Assembly: GCA_027062625.1 (NCBI GenBank)
Contig: JAMOSZ010000048.1
Coordinates: 1-35,440, forward strand
DNA length: 35,440 bases
Source of the DNA: Nautiliaceae bacterium
Lineage (GTDB): Bacteria > Campylobacterota > Campylobacteria > Campylobacterales > Nautiliaceae
Direction of reading: 5' to 3'
Each line of letters starts with the position of its first letter. Position 1 is the first letter of the stretch. This document shows, piece after piece, positions 640 to 31,012 of the stretch. The translations under genes and the position numbers were made by a program. The notes under the pieces are model-generated. The model had not been told where the DNA came from and ran no database searches. It was given only the letters and a program-made list of their open reading frames with translations.

Positions 640-1783
640 TTTCTACTCCCGGTTGATTGTATGTGTTTATATCAAGTAAACTCCCAATTGCACTTGTTAA
701 GATTTCATAATACATTATGAGCTCTCCAATGTTATAAAGAGTTAGTTTTTCTAAAATAACTTCATCAACTGGATACTCTTTTGCAATTAGTGCTTCTTTT
801 GTAGCTTCTTCTTCTTTATTAATTAACTTTTCAAAAGTTGCTCCATTTACAAAGTTTGTCTCTTCAAGAAAAGGTAGGTTTATATTTGGAATTTTAAGGG
901 GATTTTCAAAATCTTGAATTTTTAAAAAAGTTATGGTTTTGTGTCCCATCCCTTCCATTAAAAGCTGTAAAAATGAGTGCTGATCAATACTTCCTATATG
1001 ACCAACTGGCATAATCTCTTTGCCGTTTTTTCCAAGAGATTCTCCAAAAAGTTGCACATACCACTCTTTAAAAGCATTGAGAATTGTAGAATAAGCAAAC
1101 ATTACATTAACTGGGTAAATTTTATAGTTTCTTGCATAAAAGGCGGCTTTTTTTAGGAGGTGTTCTTCTTTTTTTTCAAAAAATCTATCTCTAAACTCCT
1201 TTGCTCCTTGTAATATTTTTGTTATATCAATTCCAGTTGCTCTTAAAGGCACCATTCCAACAGCACTTAATACTGAAAATCTACCTCCTACATTTTTGGG
1301 GATATTAAAAACCTCTAAGTCCCACTCAATTGCAAATTTTTCAAGGGGTGAGGATGGGTCTGTTATTATTTTTAGGTTTTTTGCTCCTTTTTGTAGATTA
1401 AAATGTTTTATTACTTTTTTAAAGATTGAGATTGTCTCAATTGTTTTGCCCGATTTTGAAATTACAAAAAAGAGAGGATTTTTAATTTGGCTAAATTTGG
1501 TTTCTAAGTCAATTGGGTCTGGATTTTCTAAAAAAATCATTTTTTTTATAGGGTATTTGTTTTTTATCATTTCATAAATTGATTTAGTTCCAAGAGAGCT
1601 TCCTCCAATTCCAATTATTACAACTTCTTCAAAGTTTTTAAATTTTAAATTTTTAAACTTTTTGGAGTGTTCTGGGAGATGATAATATCCAATTTCTTGG
1701 CTTTCATACTCTTTTAAAACTCTTTCGTAAGCTTCTTTTTGAGCTTTTTTGTTCTCATAATCAAAATATAACTTATATTCCAT
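608..1783 (-). CDS. pgi: Glucose-6-phosphate isomerase
   Basis: It interconverts glucose-6-phosphate and fructose-6-phosphate in glycolysis/gluconeogenesis. At ~391 aa it is the short form typical of Campylobacterota, against ~550 aa in enterobacteria. Visible landmarks are the sugar-phosphate (SIS) segment IIGIGGSSLGTKSIYEMI, VISKSGKTIETI, GGRFSVLSAVG, then FGESLGKNGKEIMPVGHIGSIDQHS, the family signature that includes the catalytic Glu and His. The open frame extends to 1819, but I place the start at the ATG at 1783 (MEYKLYF). A TATAAT -10 element at 1802-1807 on this strand lies inside the longer version, so transcription would begin after the upstream ATG. purH diverges from the other side of the 52-bp gap. 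Confidence 0.93.
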   Translation of the reverse strand: MEYKLYFDYENKKAQKEAYERVLKEYESQEIGYYHLPEHSKKFKNLKFKNFEEVVIIGIGGSSLGTKSIYEMIKNKYPIKKMIFLENPDPIDLETKFSQIKNPLFFVISKSGKTIETISIFKKVIKHFNLQKGAKNLKIITDPSSPLEKFAIEWDLEVFNIPKNVGGRFSVLSAVGMVPLRATGIDITKILQGAKEFRDRFFEKKEEHLLKKAAFYARNYKIYPVNVMFAYSTILNAFKEWYVQLFGESLGKNGKEIMPVGHIGSIDQHSFLQLLMEGMGHKTITFLKIQDFENPLKIPNINLPFLEETNFVNGATFEKLINKEEEATKEALIAKEYPVDEVILEKLTLYNIGELIMYYEILTSAIGSLLDINTYNQPGVEIGKVILKNKF

Positions 1784-1801
1784 TATAAGCCTTTTTTCAA
1801 A

Positions 1802-1807
1802 ATTATA
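1802..1807 (-). promoter_or_regulatory. -10 element (TATAAT) for pgi
   Basis: A perfect TATAAT on the minus strand, 19-24 nt upstream of the pgi ATG at 1783, predicts a short leader of about 12 nt. The region is shared with the divergent purH start at 1836. No clear -35 is visible, as is usual for Campylobacterota housekeeping promoters. Confidence 0.6.
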
Positions 1808-1835
1808 GTAAAATTTCACAAAAAAAAGGATATCT

Positions 1836-3356
1836 ATGGCAAAAAGGGCGTTGCTTAGTGTAAGCGATAAGAGCGGGATAGTTGATTTTGCTAAAAATTT
1901 AGTTGAGCTTGGATTTGAGATAATATCAACCGGCGGGACAAAAAGGGTTTTAGAAGAAAATGGTATTAAAGTAACCGATATTAGTGAAGTTACAAAGTTT
2001 CCTGAGTGTTTTGGAGGAAGAGTAAAAACGCTTAATCCTTATGTGCACGGGGGGATTTTATACAGAAGCGGGATTGATGATGAGGAGGCAAAAAGCCTTG
2101 GGATTGAGAGGATTGATTTAGTGGCTGTGAATTTATACCCTTTTAAAGAGACAATTGAACGTACTGACGATTTTGATGAAATTATTGAAAATATTGATAT
2201 TGGCGGACCAACAATGGTTAGGAGTGCGGCTAAGAACTTTAAGGATGTAATTATTGTAACAAATCCAAATGATTATGATATGGTGGTTGATGCTTTAAAA
2301 AATGGGAAGGATGATTTTGAATTTAGAAGAGATTTGATGATAAAAGCTTTTGAGCATACGGCTGCTTATGATTCTATGATTGCAAATTATATGAATGAGA
2401 GATTTAAAGGAGGGTTTGGGGATAAGAGGTTTATCGTTGGTAAGAGAGTGTTTAATACCCGTTATGGCGAAAATCCTCATCAAAGAGGTGCGTTGTATGA
2501 GTTTGAAGATTTTTGGAATGAGCTAAATATTATAAAAGGTGAGCCAAGCTTTAACAACTTAACCGATATTAACGGAGCTGTTAAGCTTGCTGTTAGTCTT
2601 GGGGAAGGGGCAATTACAATCATAAAACACGCAAATCCGTGTGGTGCTGCTAAAAAGGGTGATTTAATAACTACTTGGAAAAAAGCCTTGGAGTGTGACC
2701 CAATTAGTGCGTATGGTGGAGTTGTAGCGGTTAACGGGGTTGTTACAAAAGAACTTGCTGAGGAGATTAATAAAATTTTTGTTGAGGTATTGATTGCTGG
2801 GAAGATAACTGATGAGGCGGTTGAGGTGTTTAAAAACAAAAAAAGAATTAAACTTTTTGACCTTGGAAGAGCTAAGCTTGAAATTCCAGGTGATGTTTGG
2901 GATTTTAAACATATTGAGGGTGGATTTGTATTTCAAGATGCAGATTTTGTAGATGAGGATGAAGTAAAAGAGGCAAAATGTGTAACAAAAGTTTGTGTAG
3001 ATGATAAGAGTGATTTGGAGATGGCTTGGAAGATAGCCGCTTTAACTAAAAGTAATTGCGTTGCTTTTGTAAAAGACTCTCAACTTGTGGCAATTGGAAT
3101 GGGGATGACAAGTAGGGTTGATGCTACAAAATGTGCGGTAGAAAAAGCAAAAAGCCTTGGGCTTGATATAAAAGGTGCTAGTATGGCAAGTGAAGCATTT
3201 TTCCCATTTCGCGATAGCGTTGATTATGCGGCAAGTGTTGGGGTAAAAGCTATTATTCAGCCAGGTGGAAGTATTAGGGATGATGAAGTTATCAAAGCGG
3301 CTGATGAGCATGGGATTGCTATGTATTTTACAGGCAAAAGACACTTTTTACACTAA
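1836..3356 (+). CDS. purH: Bifunctional AICAR formyltransferase / IMP cyclohydrolase
   Basis: It catalyses the last two steps of de novo purine synthesis: formylation of AICAR by 10-formyl-THF and closure to IMP. The 506-aa length is normal. The N-terminal MGS-like cyclohydrolase domain (about residues 1-145) shows [29 protein letters not shown] and [12 protein letters not shown]. The C-terminal transformylase domain shows [33 protein letters not shown] and a C-terminal [11 protein letters not shown]...[14 protein letters not shown] block. An AAAGGAT ribosome site precedes the ATG. The downstream small gene starts 8 nt after the stop. Confidence 0.97.
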
Positions 3357-22987: not shown

Positions 22988-24671
22988 TATTTTGCTTTTT
23001 GTTACTTTTTTACCGCTTTTTTTTATACTTCCTGTTTTTATGAAAATTTATGCAATAATTGGGCTTTATTTTGTTTATAAAAAAAGATTACTTCCTCTTG
23101 CTTTACTTGGTGGAATTAGTATTTTGATAAGTTTTTATGATTTAGCTGAGATTAAGAATTTTGAAGTTTATTTGCAGCTTCTTGTTTCTTTGCTTTTATG
23201 GGCTGTTTATATGCAAAGGGTTAGGGGTGAGAATTTTTATCTAAGACTCTCTCCTTATCTCTTTTTTGGGATGGGAATTGTTGCTTTTCAAAATATTTAT
23301 ATGCTTTTTTATGCGGTGTTTGAGGTTTTTGTGTTTTTGTATGTAAATGTTAAGGAGTATTCAAAGTCTCCTTTAAAAGTTGCTACTTTAATTTTTCTCT
23401 CTTCAATTCCAATGGTTGTTGTTTTGTTTTTGTTTTTTCCAAGGACTTCTCAACAACACTTTATTTTTGGTTTTAGTTCAAAGAGTATAGAGAGTGGGTT
23501 TAGTAAAGTAGTAAATAGCAATTCTAAGGACTTAACGCCAACATCTTATCCAGTAGTTGAATTTAAGCTAAATAAAGATTATGGCAAACTCTATTTAAGA
23601 GGGGGAGTTTTTTATAATAATGTAAATGGAGTTTGGGTTAGAGGGTATGGAAGAGATGAGCTTGTTAGTTTTTCCAAAATGATTGAGTATTATTTAAAAG
23701 AGTATCCTACAAATTCAAAAGTTATCTTTGGAGTTGATTTGCCTTTGAAGAGTGATTATGGGATTAATGTGGATTTTATTTTGCTCTCTTTAAAACCTAT
23801 TAAAAAGCCTCTTTTTGTAAAAGTAACTTCTGCTCTTAAATATAAACTAAAACCTTATAGACTAAGAGAGGATATGTTTTTGTATGATAAAAGATTTAAT
23901 AAAAAAGCTCAAATTATTGCTAAGGAGTTAAGGAAAATAAAGGATGAGAGAAAGAGACTTAACAAATTAATAGAAATTTTTAAATCTCAAAAGATTGTTT
24001 ACACTCTAAAAGTTGGAGATGTGGATGGAAAAAATATAGTTGATTGGATTTTTGAGCATAAAAGAGGGTATTGTACTCATTTAGCTTCTGCTTTTGCTCT
24101 TTTTGCGAGGATGGCTGGGCTTGGGAGTAGGTTAGTTGGTGGATATTTAGTAAGTGGGAATGATGGATTTTATAAAGCCTATACAAAAGATGCTCATGTT
24201 TGGGATGAAATTTTGGTAAATGGATTTTGGGTGAGGGTTGATCCTGTGGAGTTTGTTTATAAAGTGGATAAAAAAACAAAAGAGGCACTAACTACTCCAA
24301 CTCTTAGCACTTATCTATCAATGGTAAGATTTATGATTGAGACTTGGATTTTAAGATATAATAAAAAGACTCAGAAAAGATTTTTGGAATCTTTAAAAAA
24401 TAATTTAACTTCATATTTAGTTGGGTTTTTGGGGTTTGTTTTGGTTATTTATCTTGTAGTAAAAAGAATTTATAAAAAAAGAGATATTTTAGAACCTCTT
24501 TATAAAAAACTTGGAAAAAGACCAAATAAGGAGAGTGTTTATCGGTTTTTGAAGGGGTTTAATGATAAGAAACTTGATGAAATAAATGAACTTTATTATA
24601 AAATAACTTACTATAAATCTTCAAAAGAAGACATTAAAAAGCTAAAAAAACTTATAAAAGAGTATAAATGA
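22956..24671 (+). CDS. TgpA-like membrane transglutaminase
   Basis: 571 aa: about six N-terminal transmembrane helices (residues 1-165), a periplasmic transglutaminase-core domain (~residues 320-435) and one C-terminal helix near residue 485 followed by a short cytoplasmic tail. The Cys-His-Asp triad is complete: C373 in GYCTHLASAFALFARMAG, H414 in DAHVWDE and D429 in VRVDPVEF. Known relatives (TgpA of Pseudomonas) are essential or envelope-related. Start at the ATG 22956 with AGAGGGG 5 nt upstream. Overlaps DUF58 and, by ATGA, the Crp/Fnr gene. Confidence 0.92.
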   Translation: MRFLKNLHSIDILLFVTFLPLFFILPVFMKIYAIIGLYFVYKKRLLPLALLGGISILISFYDLAEIKNFEVYLQLLVSLLLWAVYMQRVRGENFYLRLSPYLFFGMGIVAFQNIYMLFYAVFEVFVFLYVNVKEYSKSPLKVATLIFLSSIPMVVVLFLFFPRTSQQHFIFGFSSKSIESGFSKVVNSNSKDLTPTSYPVVEFKLNKDYGKLYLRGGVFYNNVNGVWVRGYGRDELVSFSKMIEYYLKEYPTNSKVIFGVDLPLKSDYGINVDFILLSLKPIKKPLFVKVTSALKYKLKPYRLREDMFLYDKRFNKKAQIIAKELRKIKDERKRLNKLIEIFKSQKIVYTLKVGDVDGKNIVDWIFEHKRGYCTHLASAFALFARMAGLGSRLVGGYLVSGNDGFYKAYTKDAHVWDEILVNGFWVRVDPVEFVYKVDKKTKEALTTPTLSTYLSMVRFMIETWILRYNKKTQKRFLESLKNNLTSYLVGFLGFVLVIYLVVKRIYKKRDILEPLYKKLGKRPNKESVYRFLKGFNDKKLDEINELYYKITYYKSSKEDIKKLKKLIKEYK

Positions 24672-25300
24672 GAGATATTTTTTTGTTTGAGAGTTTGAGT
24701 GAAGAGGAGTTAAAAGAGATTGAGAGTTTTTCTAAGAGGATTTACTTAAAAAAGGGAGATATTGTCTTTTATGAAAAAGAGTTGCCTTTATTTTTGCATA
24801 TAATATTAAAAGGGGAGGCGGTTGTTTATAAAGTAGATTCAAAAGGAAATGAATTAATTGTCCACAAATTTAATGCTCCATCTTTAATTGCTGAGCTTGC
24901 AAATTTAGAAAATATTCCTTATCCTGCAAATTGTAAGGTTATAAGTAATGAGGCAATTATTTTGAAGGTAGATTTTAAGAAGTTTTCTAAATTTTTGCAT
25001 AATCCAAAAATTTGTGTTAAAGTAATGAATTCTCTTTTAAAGAAGATGAGATTTCTTGATAATATGATATTAAATACTTTGGTTTTAGATGTTGAGAGTA
25101 GGATTGCGAAGTTTATTTATGAGAATGAAGAGGCTTTTTTGACTTTAAAGCAGCACAATATCGCAAAACTTTTAAAGATTACTCCCGAGACTCTTAGTAG
25201 AAAACTTAAAAAATTTAAAAAACTTGGGATTATTGAAAATAAAGAAGGGAAATTGGTTATTAAAGACAAAGAAGCAATAAAAAATTACTTCTCTTGGTAA
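24668..25300 (+). CDS. Crp/Fnr-family transcription regulator (HcpR-like candidate)
   Basis: 210 aa: an N-terminal cyclic-nucleotide-binding-type beta-roll (residues ~5-115, YLKKGDIVFYEKELPLFLHIILKGEAVVYK), a dimerisation helix and a C-terminal winged helix-turn-helix (LKQHNIAKLLKITPETLSRKLKKFKKLGII). It lacks the N-terminal cysteine set of FNR, so it should not carry FNR's 4Fe-4S sensor. It lies beside hemerythrin and hcp, and a perfect TTGAT-N4-ATCAA site stands upstream of hcp at 27197-27210. By analogy with HcpR/NssR/Dnr regulators it may respond to nitric oxide. It is coupled by a 4-nt overlap to the transglutaminase gene, so it may be expressed from the MoxR operon. Confidence 0.9.
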   Translation: MRDIFLFESLSEEELKEIESFSKRIYLKKGDIVFYEKELPLFLHIILKGEAVVYKVDSKGNELIVHKFNAPSLIAELANLENIPYPANCKVISNEAIILKVDFKKFSKFLHNPKICVKVMNSLLKKMRFLDNMILNTLVLDVESRIAKFIYENEEAFLTLKQHNIAKLLKITPETLSRKLKKFKKLGIIENKEGKLVIKDKEAIKNYFSW

Positions 25301-25671
25301 AACTCTTCATCTTTGATTGCTTCTTTTAAATAATCAGCCATTATTTTATCGAATGTTTGTATATGCTCTTCCATAAGAGGAATTAAACGATTTTTTATAA
25401 ATTCTAAAAGTTCATCTGGGGATTTGTCTAACATCCTCTCAATTTCTCCAATTATTTTAATATGTTCTTGATTATGGTTTGGAGTCAGGGGATAATTATA
25501 CTTTTCCATTAATTCTATTTCTTGAAAGAAATGAACGTTTAAGTGTTTTAAGAATTTTTCAATCTCTTCATTATATTCTAAGTGATTTTTAATTTTTGCA
25601 ACAACTTTTGCTAAGATTTCAAACTCTTCTTCGTGCATTGTATCAAAATCTTCAAACCCTATTTTTTTCAT
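25285..25671 (-). CDS. Bacteriohemerythrin
   Basis: A 128-aa single-domain hemerythrin with all seven di-iron ligands visible: H13, H47-x3-E51, H66-x3-H70 and H103-x4-D108. Such proteins bind O2 reversibly and in some bacteria deliver or scavenge O2, or protect against NO and oxygen. AAAAGG ribosome site 8 nt upstream. It lies 50 nt downstream of hcp on the same strand, so the two are probably co-transcribed; there is no separate FNR-type box in the 50-nt gap. Its 3' end overlaps the convergent Crp/Fnr gene by 16 nt. Confidence 0.95.
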   Translation of the reverse strand: MKKIGFEDFDTMHEEEFEILAKVVAKIKNHLEYNEEIEKFLKHLNVHFFQEIELMEKYNYPLTPNHNQEHIKIIGEIERMLDKSPDELLEFIKNRLIPLMEEHIQTFDKIMADYLKEAIKDEEFYQEK

Positions 25672-25721: not shown

Positions 25722-27146
25722 TTAGTTTGCTAAATCCTTGCCAAAATCTTTTTGAATGTCACCTGAAATAACACCTAAATTAAATTTTTCTACCAAGAAA
25801 TTTATTATATCCTCGTTTGCAAATTGTGGAGCGTTTGGTCCAATATAGATATCTTTAATTCCAAGACTAAGTAATGCTAAGAGGATAATAATAGCTTTTT
25901 GTTCCATCCACATAAGAGCAATTGATACTGGAAGCTTATTAATATCTTCAATTCCAAGTGCATTTGCCACAGTCAAAGCAATATGTACAGCCCCATTACT
26001 ATCGTTACATTGCCCAAGGTCAATATACCTTGGAATATCAGTCCCAGGTACTACTCCAAAATCAACATCGTTAAATCTAAATTTACCACAGCTTGATGTA
26101 ATAATAATATGGTCTTTTGGAACCGCAAGTGCTAACTCTCTAAAATAATTTCTCTTTTTACCAGGTGCGTCACATCCAGCAATTACCCATACTCTTTTTA
26201 ATTTACCTTCTTTGATTGCATCAAGAACTTTTGCTCCATATGCTTCAAGCACAGTTTTATAATGATGTCCTGTAACGATTTTTTCATCGCTATCAAATCC
26301 AGTAATATCTGGTAATTCAAGAGTGTGGTCAATTAGCGGGTCAAAGTTGTCGTTTTCAATTTTTTTAGCCCCTTCAACTCCTACGATTTTGTAAGTGTAG
26401 AGTCTGTCAATATAGTTTTTAACTTTTGGTGATTTTTCTGGTGGGACTATGCAGTTTGTATTTACTACACAAGTTCCACTCCATTTGCTAAAAATATCAG
26501 TTTGGTCATACCAAGCTTTACCGATGTTTCCTTTTAGTGCTTTGTATTTTTTTAGGTGAGGATATGCGTGAGCTGGGAGCATTTCTGAGTGAGTATAAAC
26601 TCCAATTTTATCACTTAAACCTCTCTCTTCAATTCTTTGAAGTAATTTTTCAAGCATATCAAGATTATGTCCTGATACTAAGATACCTTTTCCTTCGGCT
26701 TTATTTTGAGTAACTTCAACTGGTGCTGGAATACCAAGTGCTTTTGTGTGTAAGTCAGCGAGTAAATCCATTACTTTAACTCCTGCTTGACCAACTTTCA
26801 TAAGTTGAGAGATATGCTCATCAAAATTGAAGTTTACATTTGTTAATGTAAAGTATAGAGTCTCAGCTGTTACATCGTCAATCTCCATTAGTGTATTCCA
26901 TTCATTTTTGCTTCCGTGTTTTTCAATAAGCTCTCTTGCATGTTCTCTATATGCAGATAAACCTCTTAGCCCATAAGTCATAAGGTCTTGAAGTCTTGCT
27001 TTTGTAGCATCTTTACCACAAACCCCTTTGCTCTCTCCATGGCTTCCACATCCACCAGGTGTGCTCATTTCACATTGCCAGCAAAGAAATGGTAAATCGC
27101 AAGATTGTTTTTTTGATTTGTTTTCGTTTTTAAACATTCCAAACAT
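25722..27146 (-). CDS. hcp: Hydroxylamine reductase / hybrid cluster protein
   Basis: 474 aa from the ATG at 27146, which has AAGGAG 5 nt upstream; an in-frame upstream ATG at 27197 overlaps the regulatory box and lacks a site. N-terminal cluster cysteines are C22-x2-C25-x7-C33-x9-C43. Hybrid-cluster ligands are recognisable in VSGHNLDML, YTHSEMLPAH, SGTCVVNTNCIVPP, VIAGCDAPG, DLGQCNDSNGA and WMEQKA. The family reduces hydroxylamine to ammonia and also acts as NO reductase or S-nitrosylase. In Nautilia profundicola a hydroxylamine reductase has been proposed to serve nitrate assimilation, so it may be metabolic as well as protective. No hcr reductase gene is adjacent. Confidence 0.95.
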   Translation of the reverse strand: MFGMFKNENKSKKQSCDLPFLCWQCEMSTPGGCGSHGESKGVCGKDATKARLQDLMTYGLRGLSAYREHARELIEKHGSKNEWNTLMEIDDVTAETLYFTLTNVNFNFDEHISQLMKVGQAGVKVMDLLADLHTKALGIPAPVEVTQNKAEGKGILVSGHNLDMLEKLLQRIEERGLSDKIGVYTHSEMLPAHAYPHLKKYKALKGNIGKAWYDQTDIFSKWSGTCVVNTNCIVPPEKSPKVKNYIDRLYTYKIVGVEGAKKIENDNFDPLIDHTLELPDITGFDSDEKIVTGHHYKTVLEAYGAKVLDAIKEGKLKRVWVIAGCDAPGKKRNYFRELALAVPKDHIIITSSCGKFRFNDVDFGVVPGTDIPRYIDLGQCNDSNGAVHIALTVANALGIEDINKLPVSIALMWMEQKAIIILLALLSLGIKDIYIGPNAPQFANEDIINFLVEKFNLGVISGDIQKDFGKDLAN

Positions 27147-27168
27147 TGTTTCTCCTTTTTTTTTAGGT

Positions 27169-27174
27169 ATTTTA
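27169..27174 (-). promoter_or_regulatory. -10 element (TAAAAT) for hcp
   Basis: TAAAAT on the minus strand predicts a start near 27162 and a 16-nt leader before the ATG at 27146. The TTGAT-N4-ATCAA box is centred at 27203.5, i.e. -41.5, the class II activator position. Confidence 0.6.
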
Positions 27175-27196
27175 GTTATTATTTTGATAAATTTCA

Positions 27197-27210
27197 TTGA
27201 TTTGAATCAA
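27197..27210. promoter_or_regulatory. FNR/HcpR-type operator between hcp and reverse gyrase
   Basis: TTGATTTGAATCAA is a perfect match to the FNR consensus TTGAT-N4-ATCAA and to the HcpR half-sites TTGA-N6-TCAA. The palindrome extends to 16 bp with A at 27196 and T at 27211. It is centred at -41.5 for hcp (activation position). It also overlaps the expected start of rgy transcription if rgy uses GATAAA at 27186-27191, ending 2 nt before the rgy ribosome site, where binding would repress. Confidence 0.8.
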
Positions 27211-27222
27211 TAAAGGAGAGAA

Positions 27223-30200
27223 ATGCTAAAAGCTATTTATAAAAACCGCTGCCCAAGATGTCTTGGGGATATTACATCTATTAGATTATCAAAAGGGGAA
27301 TTTTGTGATAAGTGTATGAGGGAGATTGATAGTTTTGAGTGTGAAGAGTTAGGAGAATTTAAGAGATTTTGCATAGCTTCTAAAAAGTTAGAGGAGTTTG
27401 AGGAGTTTTTTTATAATAAAACTTCAAATTATTTAACATCAATTCAGAAAATGTGGGCTAAGAGATTTTTTCTTGGCAACTCTTTTGCACTTCTTGCACC
27501 AACTGGGATTGGGAAAAGTACTTTTGGCATATTGCTTAGTGCGTTTGTCAAAAATTCATATATTGTTTTGCCAACAAAACTATTAGTTATACAGACATTA
27601 AATGAGCTCAAAGAGTTTGGGATTGATGCTTTGGCTTATACTGGTAGGAAAGAAGAGAAAGAGAAGATAAAAAAGGGAGAATATGATATTTTAATTACTA
27701 CAACTCAATTTCTTTATAAAAACAAAGAGATTATCAAAAAAGAGTTTGAGCTTGTGTTTGTTGATGATGTTGATAGTATTTTAAAATCTGGCAAAAAGAT
27801 AGAGGATGTTTTAGAGCTTCTTGGATTTAGCAAGGAGGATTTAAAAAGAGCTTATGAGTTGATTGAAAAAAAAGAGTATGAAAAACTAAGTGAAATTGCT
27901 AAGAAAAGAAAAGGCAATCTCTTAGTCTCATCAGCTACTGCGAATCCAAAAAGTAAAAGAGTATTACTTTTTAAATATTTGTTAGGTTTTGAAGTTAGCA
28001 AACCAAATCTTAGTTTAAGAAATATTGAGGATTTGTATGATGAGAATTTTTCTTGGGAGAGGTCAATTGAGTGGATAAAAAGGCTTGGGAGGGGCGGGCT
28101 TTTGTTTTTGCCCGGGAATGAGACAAAAGAGAGGTTAAAAGAGTATATTGAGTTTCTTGGAAAAAATGGTATTAAGGCATACTCTTATGAAGAGTTTAAT
28201 GAGTATTTGAATGAGTTTATAAGAGGAGAGTGCTATTTTGTAGGATTTGCAAGTTATCGCAATCCATTGGCAAGAGGGATAGATTTGCCAGAAGCTATAA
28301 GGTATACTCTTTTTATTGGGGTGCCTAAGATGGAGTTTAATTTAAGTAGCGATGATTTTAGAGGGCTTTATTTTATTTTGTTATCACTCTTTCCTTATCT
28401 TCTTAGAAAAAGACTTATAGACTCAAAAAAAGCTTTTGAAATTCAAAATTATATAAATCTTTTAAAAAAATATATCTTTTGGAATTTCAATTTACCAAAT
28501 GAGAGGTTAGAAGAGATAGCAAAAAAAGCAAAAGAGCTTATAAGAGAGTATGAAGAAGAGATAAAAAACTCTCCTGAGATTAGTTTTGATGGAGAGAAGA
28601 TACTCACTGCTGATATTACCGGTTATATTCAAGCAAGTGGAAGAGCAAGTAGATTTTACAAAGGGCATCTTACAAAGGGAATTGCTTTGGTATTGGTTGA
28701 TAATCAAAAAGCTTTTTACTCTCTTAGAAAAAAGCTTAAATGGTTTAGTGAAGCTGAATTTAAGAAGGTTTTAGATGTAAATTTAGATGAGATTTTAAGA
28801 GAAGTTGATGAGAGTAGAAAAGTTGATAAAAAACTTAATTTAAAGACAACTTTTGTAATTGTAGAATCTCCAACAAAAGCAAAAACAATTAGCTCCTTTT
28901 TTGGTAAGCCAAGCAAGAGAATTGTTAATGGAGTTAGTGTTTGGGAAATTTTGCTTGAAGATAGGGTTTTGCTTATTAGTGCAAGTATTGGGCACGATTT
29001 TGATTTGAGTGAGAGGGAGGGAGTTTTTGGGGTTGTTGATAAGTATGTGCCTGTTTTTAGGGTATTGGAAGAAAAAGATAGGATTTTGAATGCTTTTAAT
29101 TTAACAAGTAGTGAGGTTGATGAGATTTTCGTTGCTACTGACCCTGATAGAGAAGGAGAGAAAATCTCTTTTGATTTGAGTTTGAATAATAAGCCATATA
29201 ACCTTAACATCAAAAGAGCTGAATTTCACGAAATTACAAAGTATGCGTTTAGAGAGGCTTTGAAACATCCAAGGGATGTTGATTTGAATTTGGTAGCGGC
29301 TCAATTTGTAAGAAGGATTTTGGATAGGTGGGTTGGATTTAAAGTCTCTTTATATCTTCAAAAACTCTTAAACAACCCCCATCTCTCAGCTGGAAGAGTC
29401 CAAACACCTGTTTTAAAATGGATTTGTGAGAGGACTTTAAAGTTAAAAGAAAAAGTTTATGTAGTAAGGGTTGAGTTTGATGATGTTAGGGTTGAATTTG
29501 AGTTTGATAAAAAAGAAGAAGCTAAAAAATTTTATGAAGAGATAAAAGAGGTTGAAGTAAAAAAGATAGAGGAGAGAAAAGAGGAGCTTTTTGAGATGCC
29601 TTTTAACACTTCTGAGATGTTAAAAGAGGCATCAGTTAAGCTTAAATTTTCTCCTCAAAAGACAATGACCTTAGCCCAAGAGCTTTTTGAGATGGGGTTT
29701 ATTACTTATCACCGCACAGACTCTCATAGAATCTCATCTCTTGGGATGAAAATTGCAAAAGAGTATATAAAAGAGAATTTTGGGGATGAGTTTGTAAAGA
29801 GTAGGAGTTTTGAAGAAGGTGGAGCACATGAGGCTATAAGAGCGACAACTTCAATGGATAAAGAGGATTTAGAGAGTTTTGCACTCTCAAAAGGGATTGA
29901 GCTAAGCTTTGAGCATTTGAGACTTTATGATTTGATTTTTAGGAAATTTATAGCTTCTCAAATGAGAGAAGTTGAGGTTAAAAAAGAGATTTTTGAAATT
30001 ATTTGCAAAAGAGAGGAATTTGTTACTCAAATTTTAAGGGATGGATTTAACTTAATCTATCCTATAAAAGTTTATAATATAAAAGAAGGGATAAAAGAGG
30101 TTAAGAAGAGTTATTTTGAAAAATCAAAGTATCCTCCATTTACATATGCCGATATTATTGAGATGATGAAAAAAAGAGGGATTGGAAGACCATCAACTTA

Positions 30201-30432
30201 CGCTATTACCATTGAAAAGCTACTTGATAGAGGGTATGTTGTAGAAAAAAACGGATACCTTTTTGCAACAAGGCTTGGATTTAAAGTGGTTGAGATAGTT
30301 TATAACTCTTCTTTTAGCGAGTTTGTAAGCGAGGAGTTTACCGCAAAGCTTGAAGAGATTATGGATGAGATTGAAAGAGGAGAGAGGGATTATAAAGAGG
30401 AGCTTACTTTGCTTTTTTCTTTACTCTTTTAA
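27223..30432 (+). CDS. rgy: Reverse gyrase
   Basis: A 1069-aa fusion of an SF2 helicase and a type IA topoisomerase that introduces positive supercoils into DNA. In order: N-terminal zinc finger (C10, C13, C28, C31); Q-motif Q75; Walker A LLAPTGIGKST (K98); DEAD-box equivalent VDDVD; SSATANPKS; helicase domain 2 with GLLFLPGNE, ARGIDLPEA and GYIQASGRASRF. The Toprim start FVIVESPTKAKTISSFFG (~residue 543) follows, then the acidic DPDRE (D640, D642, E644) and the catalytic Tyr829 in ITYHRTDSHRIS. The second zinc finger found in the Toprim insertion of many homologues is missing: no Cys pairs follow GHDFDL. AAAGGAG site 4 nt before the ATG. Probable monocistron, overlapping the convergent hydroxylase gene by 29 nt. 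Confidence 0.97.
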   Translation: MLKAIYKNRCPRCLGDITSIRLSKGEFCDKCMREIDSFECEELGEFKRFCIASKKLEEFEEFFYNKTSNYLTSIQKMWAKRFFLGNSFALLAPTGIGKSTFGILLSAFVKNSYIVLPTKLLVIQTLNELKEFGIDALAYTGRKEEKEKIKKGEYDILITTTQFLYKNKEIIKKEFELVFVDDVDSILKSGKKIEDVLELLGFSKEDLKRAYELIEKKEYEKLSEIAKKRKGNLLVSSATANPKSKRVLLFKYLLGFEVSKPNLSLRNIEDLYDENFSWERSIEWIKRLGRGGLLFLPGNETKERLKEYIEFLGKNGIKAYSYEEFNEYLNEFIRGECYFVGFASYRNPLARGIDLPEAIRYTLFIGVPKMEFNLSSDDFRGLYFILLSLFPYLLRKRLIDSKKAFEIQNYINLLKKYIFWNFNLPNERLEEIAKKAKELIREYEEEIKNSPEISFDGEKILTADITGYIQASGRASRFYKGHLTKGIALVLVDNQKAFYSLRKKLKWFSEAEFKKVLDVNLDEILREVDESRKVDKKLNLKTTFVIVESPTKAKTISSFFGKPSKRIVNGVSVWEILLEDRVLLISASIGHDFDLSEREGVFGVVDKYVPVFRVLEEKDRILNAFNLTSSEVDEIFVATDPDREGEKISFDLSLNNKPYNLNIKRAEFHEITKYAFREALKHPRDVDLNLVAAQFVRRILDRWVGFKVSLYLQKLLNNPHLSAGRVQTPVLKWICERTLKLKEKVYVVRVEFDDVRVEFEFDKKEEAKKFYEEIKEVEVKKIEERKEELFEMPFNTSEMLKEASVKLKFSPQKTMTLAQELFEMGFITYHRTDSHRISSLGMKIAKEYIKENFGDEFVKSRSFEEGGAHEAIRATTSMDKEDLESFALSKGIELSFEHLRLYDLIFRKFIASQMREVEVKKEIFEIICKREEFVTQILRDGFNLIYPIKVYNIKEGIKEVKKSYFEKSKYPPFTYADIIEMMKKRGIGRPSTYAITIEKLLDRGYVVEKNGYLFATRLGFKVVEIVYNSSFSEFVSEEFTAKLEEIMDEIERGERDYKEELTLLFSLLF

Positions 30433-31012
30433 GCTTTTCAATCCCTTTTAAATCCTCTGCACTCCATTGATAGTATGTACCAAAAACTCTATCCCAAATA
30501 TCAGTAGTAATTCCGTGGTTTAATTTTGGTTTTTTGTGATGGACAAAGTGAAACTCTTGCATATATCTCCAATATTTGCTTTTAAATTCTCTTCTGTGCA
30601 TAATATGGTGCATAATCCCATAGTTAAAATATCCAAGAGTCATTCCCCCAACAATTGCCAAAGCATCTGGTAAAGGCATAATAAAATGTAATATCCAAAC
30701 AAAAAATATTGCAATTACCGCACTCATAAAAAATGGCATTGCATCGTAGCTAAAAGGATTTTGATGGTGATGTGCGTGACCTTCTATAAAAACTTTTAGT
30801 GGATGATTTTCGTGAAATAGCCAAGCGTGAACCGCATACTCTAAAAATGTAAAAAAAATAGCTCCAACTACAAAGAATGCAATGCTTGCCCAAATATCTT
30901 TTGAGTAGTAGATGCTAAGAATTAAAAATGTAATTGCGGTTAGAAAGTCAGTTGCTAAGCTTAAATAGTAATTCCATTTGCTTGCGGTCATTTTGAGTAT
31001 TAGCTCTTTCAT
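30404..31012 (-). CDS. Fatty acid hydroxylase / sterol desaturase family membrane protein
   Basis: 202 aa, four hydrophobic segments and the histidine clusters of the di-iron membrane hydroxylases: HAWLFHENH, GHAHHHQNPF, MHHIMHRREF and EFHFVHHKKP. The size and spacing fit the family (PF04116) of carotenoid/fatty acid hydroxylase-like proteins rather than an eukaryotic sterol desaturase. It probably hydroxylates a lipid acyl or related chain, an O2-dependent reaction that is notable in a presumably microaerophilic or anaerobic cell. Perfect AAGGAGGGG ribosome site. It is driven from the palindromic promoter region 31038-31064, shared with the Pqi operon. Confidence 0.9.
   Translation of the reverse strand: MKELILKMTASKWNYYLSLATDFLTAITFLILSIYYSKDIWASIAFFVVGAIFFTFLEYAVHAWLFHENHPLKVFIEGHAHHHQNPFSYDAMPFFMSAVIAIFFVWILHFIMPLPDALAIVGGMTLGYFNYGIMHHIMHRREFKSKYWRYMQEFHFVHHKKPKLNHGITTDIWDRVFGTYYQWSAEDLKGIEKLKRVKKKAK

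Follow-up and report, generated by a model that had tools for sequence, protein, structure and literature searches.

The hcp-rgy locus

The stretch of DNA considered here (the window, 35,440 nt) is a single 35-kb contig from a Nautiliaceae draft genome of 1.48 Mb in 113 contigs. The genes of a Crp/Fnr-family regulator, a hemerythrin-like protein, a hybrid cluster protein (hcp), which deals with toxic nitrogen compounds, reverse gyrase (rgy) and a fatty-acid hydroxylase follow each other in this order (Table 1). The hcp and rgy genes are divergent and separated by 76 bp. A longer, mechanically called ORF would place the start of hcp at 27197; it was rejected, and the ATG at 27146, which has a Shine-Dalgarno box, was preferred.

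Table 1. Genes and candidate regulatory signals of the hcp-rgy locus (positions in the window)
Feature	Position	Strand	Comment
Crp/Fnr-family regulator, helix TPETLSR (P180/E181-type)	24668..25300	+	candidate HcpR-like activator
Bacteriohemerythrin-like protein, downstream of hcp, same strand	25285..25671	-	TIGR02481 3.9e-12, 46.3 bits, below 51.75 cut-off
hcp/har, short-form hybrid cluster protein (hydroxylamine reductase), 474 aa	25722..27146	-	PF03063, TIGR01703 (1e-146)
hcp Shine-Dalgarno box	27156-27152	-	
hcp -10 TAAAAT	27169..27174	-	22 bp from box; predicted start 27162
TTGATTTGAATCAA, FNR/HcpR-type palindrome, candidate hcp class II activator site	27197..27210		kept upstream of hcp in 18/18 Nautiliaceae loci
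Candidate rgy -10s TATTAT; TGA-TAAATT	27177-27182; 27188-27193	+	overlap hcp promoter; unproven
rgy Shine-Dalgarno box AAGGAG	27213-27218	+	
rgy, reverse gyrase, 1069 aa, ATG 27223	27223..30432	+	TIGR01054, 1077 bits
Fatty-acid hydroxylase	30404-31012	-	

The intergenic palindrome is the sole exact copy of this 14-mer in the window. Under a first-order Markov model of the window the pattern TTGAYnnnnRTCAA is expected 0.28 times per 35 kb, or about 0.0006 times per 73-bp stretch; a mismatch-tolerant scan of the window returned 12 near-matches against 20 expected. On the minus strand the box and the hexamer TAAAAT are 22 bp apart. If this hexamer occupies positions -12 to -7, which is how the hcp start was predicted, the box is centred at -41.5. 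The original prediction of a box centred 41.5 bp upstream of the predicted hcp start is confirmed.

Conservation of the hcp promoter

The window genome was compared with 20 related vent bacteria, giving 21 Nautiliaceae genomes. The hcp gene was detected in 20 of them, the exception being an 86% complete genome (G011). All 18 hcp loci with available upstream sequence contain TTGAYnnnnRTCAA, exactly 22 bp and then TA[ACT]AAT. The spacer varies in sequence and is constant in length, and thus has the property that a class II activator site requires; Crp/Fnr class II promoters have the site at -41.5 and a fixed distance to the -10 box, which is the arrangement found here relative to the predicted start. 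The box is retained at hcp with rgy as direct neighbour or at 1.4 kb, and also at loci where rgy is truncated or missing. Candidate TTGAT-N4-ATCAA boxes also precede hcp in other Campylobacterota, whose genomes contain no rgy above the family cut-off, and several of these are 21-23 bp from TA[AC]AAT. For many Campylobacter-type hcp boxes (e.g. loci L156, L158-L161) no -10 box was found at 22 bp. Within Nautiliaceae the invariant spacing strongly supports the proposal that hcp is activated through a class II site. A well supported reading is that the box genuinely switches hcp throughout the family and is placed for hcp alone.

The candidate regulator

The protein encoded at 24668 has the cNMP-binding fold and the HTH_Crp_2 domain (PF00027 and PF13545, both above cut-off) and shares 56-64% identity with 14 aligned orthologues. 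Orthologues are encoded near hcp in 17 genomes, which is the linkage typical of HcpR1, and the helix PETLSR is invariant in the hcp-linked regulators (17/17). G020 has the box, but its 9-kb hcp contig yielded no linked regulator gene. No orthologue was found in G011, the genome in which hcp was not detected. An AlphaFold model of moderate quality (pLDDT 81.7, pTM 0.55) confirms the Crp/Fnr fold only; the fold search retrieved Crp/Fnr proteins generally, the top TM-score among the 50 listed (0.65) belonging to HcpR of P. gingivalis (9day_A).

Three known systems were considered. In HcpR1-type regulators, Ser or Pro at position 180 together with Glu181 goes with TTGACnnnnGTCAA sites (Rodionov et al. 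2005, PMC1274295). By our own alignment to CRP, from which this numbering is taken, the Nautiliaceae regulators have the same combination, with sites of this type upstream of hcp: TTGACnnnnGTCAA is close to the family box consensus. NssR of Campylobacter jejuni is likewise a Crp/Fnr-family activator of the nitrosative stress response and comes from the same bacterial class. However, it binds TTAACnnnnGTTAA and has A180/Q181 (PMC1274295), whereas Nautiliaceae combine TTGAY sites with P180/E181, so that neither the site nor the regulator is of the NssR type. The class II promoters of FNR have TTGATnnnnATCAA centred at -41.5, as does the hcp box. However, FNR contains N-terminal iron-sulphur cysteines, and no N-terminal [4Fe-4S] cysteine cluster is seen in the alignment of the 24668 family, where only C89 and C116 are invariant cysteines. 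FNR as the protein reading the box was rejected for this reason.

The closest counterpart is the HcpR1 regulon of delta-proteobacteria and cyanobacteria, where hcp is also the main target and the regulator gene also adjoins hcp (Rodionov et al. 2005, PMC1274295). The motif wyTTGACnnnnGTCAArw and the Ser/Pro180-Glu181 code are similar, and HcpR regulons include hemerythrin-like genes (PMC1274295), as does the candidate regulon of Nautiliaceae. The likeness is one of linkage, motif and residue code. Unlike HcpR1 sites, the Nautiliaceae sites often have TTGAT/ATCAA half-sites.

The window genome encodes a second Crp/Fnr paralogue (contig C18) with a very similar helix, SAETLSR. One possibility is that this paralogue, or another FNR-type protein, reads the box in place of the 24668 product. 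The helices, (S/T)(P/A)ETLSR, are nearly identical, the box sequence by itself would suit any reader of TTGAT/TTGAC, and G020 has the box with no regulator found beside hcp. However, the linkage of 24668 orthologues to hcp in 17 genomes, and the failure to find one in the only genome without a detected hcp, make this unlikely. The Crp/Fnr protein at 24668, named as the regulator in the original prediction, is a fitting candidate by its linkage to hcp and its PETLSR helix; because of the paralogue, it is the likely, not the certain, reader of the box.

The rgy side of the intergenic region

The same box had also been predicted to lie on the rgy transcription start, in a repressor position. A consensus scan of the plus strand before rgy found no sigma-70 promoter at the consensus threshold. 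The best-fitting -10-like hexamers are TATTAT, with a start at about 27189, and TGA-TAAATT, with a start at about 27200. With such degenerate hexamers the overlap of the box with the rgy start is no more than plausible.

Directly divergent hcp and rgy genes with the box between them were found in nine species. The distance from the 5' end of the box to the rgy ATG in these species is 26, 44, 45, 47, 48, 56, 64, 65 and 160 bp. Relative to rgy starts inferred from candidate -10 boxes, the centre of the box is at about +4 or +15 in the window, and at -24.5, -27.5, -33.5, -35.5, -36.5, -45.5 and -140.5 elsewhere. In six adjacent relatives (G003, G004, G006, G008, G014, G015) a TAnnnT hexamer precedes the rgy ATG by 24-26 nt, and it is this distance that is kept, not the one between hexamer and box. 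Similar hexamers, TATTAT or TATCAT, occur at this place in three genomes in which hcp does not adjoin rgy (G007, G011, G013), and no box was found upstream of rgy in these three. In the window the box occupies the place of the relatives' hexamer, and thus the hcp and rgy promoters of this species probably overlap. Activation of rgy from the hcp box was rejected: in the nine adjacent species no -10 box stands 22 bp from the box towards rgy.

Among Nitratiruptoraceae (we take family f8 to be this family) five genomes contain rgy, and none of the five has the box upstream of it; the three rgy-bearing genomes of this family listed in the hcp search gave no hcp match. The box as an element travelling with rgy was rejected, since it is absent both here and at unlinked rgy genes of Nautiliaceae. 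The box has remained at hcp, 1.4 kb from rgy, in three genomes (N. profundicola, G018 and G002); the interval in N. profundicola encodes a 441-aa protein, read as ClC-like. The original prediction looked to conservation of the box between hcp and rgy in relatives. It is conserved there, but equally so without rgy, and thus its conservation says nothing for rgy. The constant relation between box and rgy promoter that would be expected of a regulon member was not found across species.

Several loci show changes of rgy itself. In G016 (locus L106, contig C4, positions 1600-3109) the rgy remnant beside hcp and its box is without the N-terminal helicase half and is broken by a stop codon; reverse gyrase is apparently being lost in this genome. 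In G009 (L107, contig C65) rgy is missing and hcp, with an intact box, is next to the fatty-acid hydroxylase gene; these two genes flank rgy in the window. Metagenome-assembled genomes labelled Flavobacteriales (L114) and Caldisericaceae (L116) contain rgy genes 64% and 56% identical to that of the window, by transfer or binning error; no hcp or box was found in the available DNA of these two loci.

Candidate regulon

Pattern searches for boxes covered the window genome and five relatives and returned few. The 22-bp rule, a TAnnnT -10 box at exactly that distance on the strand of the gene and none on the other, holds for candidate sites upstream of YgbA_NO genes (PF11756) in G002 and G015, a rhodanese gene in G002 and its counterpart in G018, and a rubrerythrin-like gene (family score just below cut-off) in the window genome and N. 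profundicola. It likewise holds upstream of a hemerythrin gene in G015 and of feoA in the window genome, both named from sequence and not by family search. The boxed rubrerythrin-like gene adjoins a gene that by eye is pdxA (L053, 1501-1514; L192, 1503-1516) and is a candidate shared member. The feoA box (L060, 1501-1514, window genome contig C52) has TATTAT at 22 bp towards feoA and feoB, both named by eye, a candidate link between the regulon and iron uptake. A box also precedes the gene of a dCache_3/HAMP sensory protein in N. profundicola and G018 (L177, L178); it is a probable chemoreceptor by a domain scan of the N. profundicola copy. In the window genome alone the statistics are weak, the 22-bp rule holding for 3 of 30 box strands versus about one for each neighbouring spacing. 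These genes suggest that the activator serves a small regulon concerned with nitrosative stress and iron. Compared with the HcpR1 regulon, the candidates added in Nautiliaceae are YgbA_NO, rhodanese, rubrerythrin-like and feoA genes.

Discussion

The box is very probably a class II activator site of hcp, read by an HcpR-like regulator, with rgy as a bystander. A Crp/Fnr regulator of this type, most likely the 24668 product, would bind the box under nitrogen-oxide stress, the signal probably being NO or a related species, and would contact RNA polymerase at the hcp promoter. This would switch on hcp, possibly together with the downstream hemerythrin gene. The hcp box would be one site of a small regulon sharing the 22-bp geometry. 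In most relatives the region from the box to the ATG seems to contain the rgy promoter, which stands in no fixed relation to the box; in the window species, with its 12-bp spacer on the rgy side, it probably overlaps the hcp promoter.

The alternative contained in the original prediction is a conserved switch designed for both genes, with a single box serving hcp as activator site and rgy as repressor site. The nine divergent arrangements with a box between the genes speak for it. However, the predicted position of the box relative to the rgy start drifts over the whole range given above, the box persists where rgy is distant, truncated or absent, and unlinked rgy genes in Nautiliaceae, as well as those of Nitratiruptoraceae, have none. 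In N. profundicola rgy is induced more than 100-fold by heat (Campbell et al. 2009, PMC2628731, where the rgy neighbourhood is given in a supplementary figure), and 1.4 kb separate it from the nearest box. Judged by titles, we found no paper linking reverse gyrase to nitrosative stress or to promoter repression. Dual control as a conserved property is most improbable.

A local effect has somewhat better chances, but is still rather unlikely: in the window species alone, loss of spacer may have moved the box onto the rgy start, and rgy would then be blocked by the regulator or by RNA polymerase bound at hcp. The box ends just before the rgy ATG, where relatives carry their -10-like hexamer, and the remaining plausible plus-strand candidates overlap the hcp promoter. 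On the other hand, no plus-strand promoter reaches the consensus threshold, the start could be further upstream or depend on another sigma factor, and the overlap is seen in one genome, a draft in many contigs. Such lineage-specific mutual exclusion of hcp and rgy is compatible with the bystander reading, and repression or occlusion of rgy in this species is possible. It is unlikely that in the 76-bp region the hcp box has become an obligatory roadblock for rgy, such that nitrogen-oxide stress switches off reverse gyrase, unlike in relatives. The rgy link is at most a by-product of compaction in the window species.

The hcp reading is largely known in kind. The site CATTGACcgcaGTCAATG before har (hcp) of N. 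profundicola was attributed to NnrR/DNR-like regulators (Campbell et al. 2009, PMC2628731); it is the same site of the orthologous gene (genome G017) as the window box. It was published for one species, whereas the fixed class II spacing across the family is described here. In N. profundicola har mRNA was up 11.7-fold on nitrate, with P > 0.10 (PMC3701875). New are the family-wide geometry, the candidate regulon, the recognition code of the regulator and the finding that rgy is not a consistent partner. If the overlap in the window species did act on rgy, it would be unusual in tying a topology enzyme to nitrosative stress; nothing here requires this. The analysis does away with a connection between the sensing of nitrogen oxides and reverse gyrase that was appealing but lacks support, and gives in its place a clean family-wide definition of a predicted HcpR-like class II site in vent Campylobacterota, together with a candidate regulon for nitrosative stress and iron.
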